Positions 16,295 to 23,428 of a DNA stretch of 64,000 bases are shown here, piece by piece. This stretch comes from Mesorhizobium sp. 65-26 (GTDB lineage Bacteria; Pseudomonadota; Alphaproteobacteria; Rhizobiales; Rhizobiaceae): the NCBI GenBank assembly GCA_001899205.1, contig MKVL01000017.1, positions 39,227 to 103,226 of the forward strand, written 5' to 3'. The stretch's first letter is position 1; each line of letters begins with the position of its first letter. The notes under the pieces are model-generated. The model was not told the origin of the DNA. It did no database searches and was given only the letters and a program-made list of their open reading frames with translations. The translations under genes were made by a program, and so were the position numbers.

Positions 16295-16309
16295 TGCTGC
16301 ATTGCAGCA
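16295..16309. promoter_or_regulatory. PhaR-type palindrome upstream of aacS
   Basis: TGCTGC-ATT-GCAGCA is a perfect palindrome with a 3-base spacer, 35 bp before the aacS start. It contains CTGC-N3-GCAG, the class of site described for the PHB regulator PhaR in Paracoccus and Rhodobacter. The same 6-3-6 layout recurs before the phasin gene and at 57160. Confidence 0.6.
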
Positions 16310-22440: not shown

Positions 22441-22474
22441 TGTTGCATCGCAACAAAGATGTTGCATTGCACAA
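22441..22474. promoter_or_regulatory. Tandem PhaR-type operator upstream of the phasin gene
   Basis: TGTTGC-ATC-GCAACA (22441-22455) is a perfect palindrome with a 3-base spacer. A second, imperfect copy TGTTGC-ATT-GCACAA follows at 22460-22474, with centres 19 bp apart. Phasin promoters are the classic PhaR target, so repression relieved by PHB is expected. Confidence 0.65.
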
Positions 22475-22550
22475 AAAATCCTCTATATCTCTTTCCATAC
22501 ATGCACGAGACGGCTTTTCGCAAAAGCCGCTGCCCCGAAAAGGATGGAAA

Positions 22551-23009
22551 ATGTCCAAGACCAAGACCGCCGAGACCATCGAGGGCGTCGAGTTTCCGAG
22601 CTTTGACGCTTCCAAGGCTACCGATCAGTTCCGCACCTTCGCCGAAAAGGGTGTCGAGCAGTCGAAAGAGGCCTATGCCAAGCTGAAGACCGGCGCCGAA
22701 GAGACCCAGAAGGTTCTGGAATCGACCTACGAGACCGCCAAGACGGTTTCCGGCGACCTCTCGCTCAAGACCATTGCCGCGCTGCGCGCCAACGCCGAAG
22801 CCAGCTTCTCGCATATCGAGGCGCTGATCGGTGCCAAGACCCTTTCGGAAGTCGTCGAGCTGCAGACCTCGTTCCTCCGCAAGCGCGTCGAGGCCGGTGT
22901 CGAGCAGGCCAAGGATTTCCAGGCCGTCGCCTCCAAGGCGGTCGAGGACGTCTCCAAGCCGATCAAGGTTGCCTTCGAGAAGGCGTTCAAGGACGTCAAG
23001 GCTGCCTAA
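22551..23009 (+). CDS. phaP: Phasin (PHB granule-associated protein)
   Basis: 152 residues from ATG 22551 with AAGGATGG as ribosome site; an in-frame ATG at 22441 lies inside the operator and is not used. The protein is all-helical and rich in Ala, Lys, Glu and Thr, with heptad-like stretches (SKEAYAKLKTGAEETQKVLE, then SFLRKRVEAGVEQAKDFQ). This is the phasin_2 pattern (FRTFAEKGVEQSKEAY, SFSHIEALIGAKTLSEVVELQ in part). It coats intracellular polyhydroxybutyrate granules. The two upstream PhaR-like palindromes and the adjacent anti-Shine-Dalgarno sRNA suggest transcriptional and possibly post-transcriptional control. Confidence 0.9.
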   Translation: MSKTKTAETIEGVEFPSFDASKATDQFRTFAEKGVEQSKEAYAKLKTGAEETQKVLESTYETAKTVSGDLSLKTIAALRANAEASFSHIEALIGAKTLSEVVELQTSFLRKRVEAGVEQAKDFQAVASKAVEDVSKPIKVAFEKAFKDVKAA

Positions 23010-23079
23010 TTTTTGCGCATGATATGAAGATGCAACAAAAGGTCGCATTTTCTTCGAGACGATCATGTGTAAGATGGCA

Positions 23080-23200
23080 ATCATAGAATACCCGGTGGGT
23101 GGAACCTCCTCCCTCTGCTCGCCGGGGTGACCAGCCAGCTCCTCCTCCCGCTGGCTCGTAACAGGAAAAGGCCGGCACCTCCTCCCGCCGGCCTTTTTCT
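23080..23200 (+). ncRNA. Three-hairpin anti-Shine-Dalgarno sRNA, alpha-r14/NfeR1-like
   Basis: Three consecutive hairpins each display CCTCCTCCC in the loop: 23105-23113 (stem CCCGGTG with CGCCGGG), 23141-23149 (stem AGCCAGC with GCTGGCT), and 23178-23186 (stem AAAAGGCCGGC with GCCGGCCTTTT). The last hairpin plus T-run is the terminator. Three exposed CCUCCUCCC motifs are the described signature of the rhizobial alpha-r14 family (NfeR1 in Sinorhizobium meliloti, about 120 nt), which base-pairs with ribosome sites of transport and metabolic mRNAs. The 5' end at about 23080 is set by family length. No reading frame occupies the region. Confidence 0.85.
23166..23200 (+). terminator. Terminator hairpin of the sRNA
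   Basis: AAAAGGCCGGC (23166-23176) pairs with GCCGGCCTTTT (23187-23197), loop ACCTCCTCCC, followed by more T. It is both terminator and the third anti-Shine-Dalgarno hairpin. Confidence 0.9.
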
Positions 23201-23351: not shown

Positions 23352-23428
23352 GCCGTTGTAGCTCAGCTGGTTAGAGCGCCGGATTGTGGATCCGGAGGTC
23401 GCTGGTTCGATCCCAGCCAACGGTACCA
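23352..23428 (+). tRNA. tRNA-His (GTG), without the G-1 extension
   Basis: A full cloverleaf is present: acceptor GCCGTTG (23352-23358) with CAACGGT (23418-23424), D stem GCTC/GAGC, anticodon stem CCGGA/TCCGG around loop TTGTGGA (anticodon GTG at 23386-23388), T stem GCTGG/CCAGC with TTCGATC. CCA is encoded at 23426-23428. The base before the acceptor is T and the discriminator is A, so the canonical histidine identity pair G-1:C73 is missing. This matches the unusual tRNA-His known for many alphaproteobacteria. Confidence 0.95.

Follow-up and report, generated by a model that had tools for sequence, protein, structure and literature searches.

A small RNA of the ar14 family lies behind the phasin gene phaP in the 64,000-nucleotide stretch of Mesorhizobium sp. 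65-26 DNA analysed here (the window), and this place is kept in many relatives, a hint that carbon storage and gene silencing may be coupled. We consider it reasonably probable that the phasin mRNA, transcribed from a promoter with PhaR boxes, ends in this trans-acting sRNA of about 113 nt, which would serve as its 3′ UTR and terminator. Computation showed the family membership and structure of the RNA, its conserved linkage to phaP, where the terminator lies, and the PhaR boxes. Since the ar14 family (NfeR1; kin of the cuckoo and CcsR RNAs) has already been described, the RNA is new only as a member, and the novelty lies in the link of ar14 to phaP. The features of the locus are as follows:

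22444–22488, + strand: predicted phaP promoter region, with two PhaR-type boxes and a −10-like hexamer
22444–22455, + strand: PhaR-type box 1 of phaP, TGCATCGCAACA, 11 of 12 positions matching the consensus, read by eye
22463–22474, + strand: PhaR-type box 2 of phaP, TGCATTGCACAA, exact match to the PhaR consensus TGCRNYGCASMA
22483–22488, + strand: −10-like hexamer CTATAT of phaP, read by eye
22551–23009, + strand: phaP, phasin of 152 aa (translation; Pfam Phasin_2, PF09361, E 2.7e-15)
23031–23047, + strand: conserved NtrC-type box TGC-N11-GCA (TGCAWCAAAASGTCGCA), possible operator of the RNA's own promoter in Mesorhizobium
23070–23075, + strand: putative weak −10-like hexamer TAAGAT (TATGAT in many relatives), read by eye
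23087–23199, + strand: ar14 small RNA with three hairpins (limits of the Rfam RF02344 match, 71.2 bits, E 7.7e-11, model positions 1–123)
23091–23126, + strand: hairpin 1, with CCTCCTCCC in its loop at 23105–23113 (fold, covariation)
23133–23156, + strand: hairpin 2, with CCTCCTCCC in its loop at 23141–23149 (fold, covariation)
23163–23200, + strand: hairpin 3 and Rho-independent terminator, with CCTCCTCCC in its loop at 23178–23186 (fold, terminator scan)

With phaP at 22551–23009, the Rfam match starts 77 nt past its stop codon; a tRNA-His is found downstream of the RNA, at 23352–23428. In a covariance-model search (Rfam release 15), the match to ar14 spans the full-length model and its score lies above the cut-off of 58.8 bits. 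The assignment to the alpha-r14 (NfeR1) family made in the preliminary description therefore holds, and the small RNA behind phaP is an ar14 member.

The RNA strand folds into three successive hairpins with all three CCTCCTCCC copies unpaired in the loops (minimum free energy −60 kcal/mol, z −4.89; none of 200 shuffles equally stable), and the hairpins stay intact when the whole 3′ region is folded. The identical nine-base motif that had been described in three hairpin loops (at 23105, 23141 and 23178) was thus confirmed, both in its exact positions and in being unpaired. The window holds four exact copies of CCTCCTCCC on both strands against a shuffle mean of 0.74, and none of 100 shuffles reached four; since the motif is expected 0.74 times in 64 kb, three copies inside 82 bases are not due to chance. 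The fourth copy stands isolated on the + strand at 1903–1911, with no ar14 match there.

Covariation was assessed in an alignment of 22 chosen sequences, namely the window, seven Mesorhizobium loci and 14 loci from 13 other genera. In the three helices 93.2% of the cells were paired, with 65 double-change cells, and 16 of 34 pairs showed changes on both sides, a count that none of 500 shuffles equalled. Slid registers paired only 39–62% of cells, a comparison in which the tested structure is favoured because it is the window's own fold. Stem sequence varies across genera, yet pairing is kept through compensatory changes.

Conservation within the genus was followed in two ways. A DNA query of phaP plus RNA found a match in all 99 genus genomes, and by the author's reading of the table the best alignment reached the RNA (query position at least 624 of 657) in 91 of them; in the remaining eight it ended before the RNA, one of these loci (G062) being split over two contigs. 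A Mesorhizobium-type set was then made of the best 80 of 166 relatives from a protein scan of named genomes, and so contains the closest phasins. All but two of its loci (L075 and L140) are titled Mesorhizobium (78/80), and L098, whose contig ends 56 nt past the stop codon, was left out of the motif count and the alignment. Each of the 79 usable loci among these best 80 of 166 carries exactly three motifs, starting 85–99, 121–135 and 158–172 nt past the phasin stop codon.

Over 80 rows (the window and the 79 loci, again from the best 80 of 166 relatives), mean column identity reached 1.000 for the loops and 0.999 for the 5′ arm of hairpin 3; both arms of hairpin 2 stood at 0.998, the 3′ arm and T run of hairpin 3 at 0.936, and hairpin 1 at 0.87–0.89. 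For the last 20 phaP codons it was 0.924, for the spacer 0.71–0.81 and for the post-terminator stretch 0.695. The stems, whose retention in related Mesorhizobium genomes had been set as a test, are thus retained. Among phasin paralogues on plasmid records, the motif was present in none of the five inspected out of 82 records with a match.

The linkage extends beyond the genus. From the GTDB family, 121 genomes were drawn, two of them Mesorhizobium, and 89 had a phasin match. Taking the best phasin locus per genome and exact motifs up to 200 nt past the stop codon, at least one motif was found behind phaP in 33 of the 89 and none in 56; 17 of the 33 loci had three motifs, eight had two and eight had one. 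Outside Mesorhizobium, 29 of the 31 loci with a motif have the first one 26–47 nt past the stop codon, the exceptions being L167 (66 nt) and L176 (77 nt), each with one exact motif. Despite differing stems, at least eight of the nine motif bases were unpaired in 74 of 75 motifs when the 33 loci were folded. At the Rfam gathering cut-off, ar14 was recovered in 13 of 20 loci scanned; of the other seven, L165 has three motifs and scored 63.1 bits in the genome search, and the remaining six have one motif or none.

All 33 motif-bearing rows of the phasin protein tree (88 rows; L233, which is short, was left out) fall in one clade of 47 with support 96/92, and none of the 41 rows outside that clade has the motif. 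Within the clade 14 of 47 rows lack an exact motif, and no fewer than 11 changes between motif and no-motif labels are required on the tree, five of them forced by well-supported branches, which indicates that the module is dispensable in some lineages. This fits a putative single acquisition followed by partial loss, on a tree with few columns and many open forks in the clade. A tRNA-His stands downstream of phaP in all 18 loci scanned, with or without the RNA and including L188 and L195 from outside the clade; it is therefore the same locus throughout. In L156 and L160, from other genera, the hairpin 2 stem is kept and its loop motif lost, the hairpin 1 motif is kept, and hairpin 3 carries a one-base variant, a state of apparent stepwise erosion of the module.

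In nine of 11 other genomes checked, the nine being of other genera (G149, G126, G136, G106, G165, G168, G205, G158 and G105; sub-cut-off in G205 with 58.5 bits and in G158 with 52.1 bits), the Rfam match starts only 9–29 nt past the phaP stop codon. The two others, G152 with a phaP lacking the motif and G175 with no phasin match, have ar14 only elsewhere in the genome. Spacers this short leave no room for a full promoter, so the phaP transcript is the simplest source. A promoter overlapping the end of phaP is possible in those genera. For Mesorhizobium we considered a promoter inside the end of phaP and rejected it: synonymous entropy at codons 136–150 is 0.54 of that expected, within the 0.32–0.69 of the other 15-codon blocks (the last block, 0.08, is a single codon), and variation that is not specially low speaks against a promoter there.

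The PhaR consensus TGCRNYGCASMA lies within 250 nt upstream of phaP in every one of the 80 Mesorhizobium-type loci (the best 80 of 166 relatives) and in 28 of 28 other-genus loci; as the latter include loci without the RNA, the box belongs to phaP generally. With four matches in all on both strands of the window, a chance match within 250 bases is unlikely, though the loci are related. Elsewhere in the window, two overlapping matches on both strands lie at 16295–16309 (16295 and 16298). In Bradyrhizobium, PHB is described as abolishing DNA binding by PhaR, with this consensus, in vitro (PMC6201568).

In Mesorhizobium the spacer between phaP and the RNA is longer, about 77 nt, and holds TGCAWCAAAASGTCGCA, whose TGC and GCA arms are invariant in 80 of 80 rows; TGC-N11-GCA is present in 78 of 79 Mesorhizobium-type spacers against two of 79 equal-length post-terminator stretches (all from the best 80 of 166 relatives). 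With at most one mismatch allowed, a single copy of the block is present in each of 11 of 13 Mesorhizobium genomes, and eight genomes of other families have none. We also tried 23027–23051 as an RNA stem, and rejected it: the three innermost pairs alone are kept throughout the 80 rows (best 80 of 166 relatives) and the outer pairs often break, so we take the block for a DNA box. A putative NtrC motif of this form, TGC-N11-GCA, has been named for the nfeR1 promoter (PMC10746234). Given its conservation here, the RNA may plausibly have a second, nitrogen-linked promoter of its own in the Mesorhizobium spacer, with this predicted NtrC-type box.

Carried further, these observations would make the RNA an independent sRNA gene, transcribed in Mesorhizobium from its own sigma-70 promoter under TGC-N11-GCA control as with NfeR1 and NtrC, with phaP as a neutral site. 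The conserved box, the −10-like hexamer seen by eye 12 nt ahead of the Rfam start, and the own promoter of NfeR1 in S. meliloti all count in this direction and against an origin in the phaP 3′ UTR. However, TGC-N11-GCA alone is weak, its 22 window matches (31 expected) being no excess over chance, and a consensus scan listed no sigma-70 promoter, nor the TAAGAT at 23070–23075. The NfeR1-type promoter CTTAGAC-N17-CTATAT is absent from 23010–23086. Moreover, the spacer is too short in most other genera, where the box occurs in one of 28 loci, and a neutral site leaves unexplained why one phasin clade retained the linkage. On balance we regard an independent gene as rather unlikely, and an RNA derived from the phasin mRNA remains our preferred reading.

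The position of the terminator agrees with the preferred reading. Hairpin 3 continues into TTTTTCTTT, and the proposal that the last hairpin is a Rho-independent terminator gained support from our own scan, which admits its 10-nt loop and classed it as terminator-like in all 79 loci (best 80 of 166 relatives); a fixed-rule scan limited to loops of 3–8 does not have hairpin 3 in its list. A terminator-like stem ahead of hairpin 3 appears in two of the 79 loci and in none of the other 77 (same best 80 of 166), and hairpin 3 is probably the common terminator of phaP and the ar14 RNA.

It could be argued that the hairpins do no more than this, i.e., that they terminate the phaP mRNA and stabilize its 3′ end, with no separate RNA and no action in trans. 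Indeed, in 77 of 79 loci (best 80 of 166 relatives) phaP has no evident terminator other than hairpin 3, and inspection by eye shows a plain terminator-like hairpin in the corresponding place behind many phasin genes outside the clade. Yet a plain terminator needs neither three hairpins nor one nine-base motif per loop, and the loops are invariant while the stems vary with compensation. The arms of hairpin 2 and the 5′ arm of hairpin 3 also exceed the coding end of phaP in conservation, whereas the 3′ arm and T run of hairpin 3 about equal it (identities above, best 80 of 166 relatives). Together with the reported silencing of mRNAs by NfeR1 (PMC10746234), this makes a purely terminating role improbable.

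Three ar14 copies in the source genome score over the cut-off, and a further match is weak (32.9 bits); ar14 was found in all 99 genus genomes drawn, over the cut-off in 98, with one to nine matches each. The best copy begins directly past the stop codon of a DUF1127 gene (L001:57-348, contig C31; Pfam), and the phaP-side copy is a locus distinct from it. A second DUF1127 gene upstream of the best copy gives the CcsR/ccaF1 layout in Mesorhizobium. Such redundancy, together with the report that one of six ar14 loci of S. meliloti is reliably detected by Northern blot (PMC7143759), might suggest that the phaP-side RNA is a degenerate copy kept there by chance. Its near-invariance in 79 loci (best 80 of 166 relatives) and its retention across genera contradict this, and we give the idea very little credence.

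Under the preferred reading, PhaR would leave the phaP promoter as PHB granules form, and transcription of phaP would run through the three hairpins to the hairpin 3 terminator. By analogy with CcsR, an endonuclease such as RNase E may then cut the unpaired stretch ahead of hairpin 1 and free the RNA. With three CCUCCUCCC loops similar to the 16S anti-Shine-Dalgarno sequence, the freed RNA could bind G-rich ribosome sites on other mRNAs and so silence these. In Mesorhizobium, a possible additional spacer promoter with an NtrC-type box may feed in nitrogen status. Co-transcription with phaP, processing and silencing in trans are what we infer.

In S. meliloti, NfeR1 is reported to silence mRNAs by pairing at ribosome sites, with its three motifs redundant, and reporter assays confirmed ntrB and two ABC-transporter mRNAs as targets (PMC7143759, PMC10746234); by homology the phaP-side RNA should silence mRNAs likewise. 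We examined phaP and ntrB as outstanding targets and rejected both. In a simple duplex calculation, which leaves aside accessibility and pairing beyond the nine bases, the loop pairs with the phaP translation start at −7.1 kcal/mol and with the ntrB start at −8.0 kcal/mol, energies that 17% and 10%, respectively, of 3000 random 30-mers from the window equal or beat; neither is therefore put forward as a target. Here ntrB was taken by position, as the ORF between the nifR3/dusB match and the ntrC match. We also ranked the gene-like ORFs of the window more broadly, but discarded the result as too crude, with guessed start sites and with phaP missing from the ORFs. The earlier remark that the position behind phaP is of interest has turned out stronger than first put, since several genera preserve the linkage; as a target of the loops, though, phaP is a poor prediction.

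We hypothesize, tentatively and with less confidence than doubt, that in one Rhizobiaceae (GTDB) clade the 3′ end of the phasin mRNA is an anti-Shine-Dalgarno sRNA, such that PhaR-released granule coating makes a broad silencer, and that the NtrC-type promoter added in Mesorhizobium turns it into a carbon/nitrogen switch. Few ar14 copies have known signals and targets, and the copy in the phaP 3′ region offers a candidate input, the PHB state via PhaR. If true, the carbon-storage programme would be linked directly to the silencing of other messages, and the locus would show how a single loop module serves behind more than one host gene, phaP in this case and DUF1127 at another site of this genome.

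Among the papers covered by the literature searches, none puts ar14 behind phaP in its title or abstract; as the 2015 cuckoo RNA paper was outside that scope, the linkage may be in print. The word "phasin" is absent from the accessible parts of two ar14-related texts (PMC3927594 and PMC10746234), and a review of post-transcriptional PHA control covers MmgR, its available portion being without the word NfeR1. In a section of a study on M. huakuii (PMC5596092), a table of 40 sRNA candidates has none named ar14, and its coordinates are not mappable to phaP, so that it counts neither for nor against a transcript. The closest known systems are found among rhizobial and related sRNAs.

NfeR1 (Smr14C2) of Sinorhizobium meliloti has the same three hairpins, with CCUCCUCCC in each loop and hypervariable stems. 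The name CcsR stands for this CCUCCUCCC motif. NfeR1 has its own promoter with LsrB and NtrC sites (PMC10746234), whereas the RNA studied here lies in the phaP 3′ region. CcsR1–4 of Rhodobacter sphaeroides are reported to arise from the ccaF1 3′ UTR through RNase E (PMC8625941, PMC10253847), like the origin from a protein-gene 3′ UTR proposed here; their host gene is a DUF1127 gene, while ours is a phasin gene. It is the best ar14 copy of the source genome that directly follows DUF1127, as CcsR does in ccaF1 (PMC10253847). The cuckoo RNA family (Reinkensmeier and Giegerich 2015) is alike in having 2–4 hairpins whose loop motif is conserved while the stems vary, and the associated locus quoted for it is DUF1127, CIN1 (PMC10253847). 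The same hairpin architecture is described for SmelA075/SmelA099 (PMC3927594). Finally, MmgR (ar8) is a rhizobial sRNA tied to phasin and PHB level and described as being under NtrC and AniA/PhaR; it belongs to a different family and acts on the phasin level from a separate locus, whereas the ar14 RNA sits behind the phasin gene itself.
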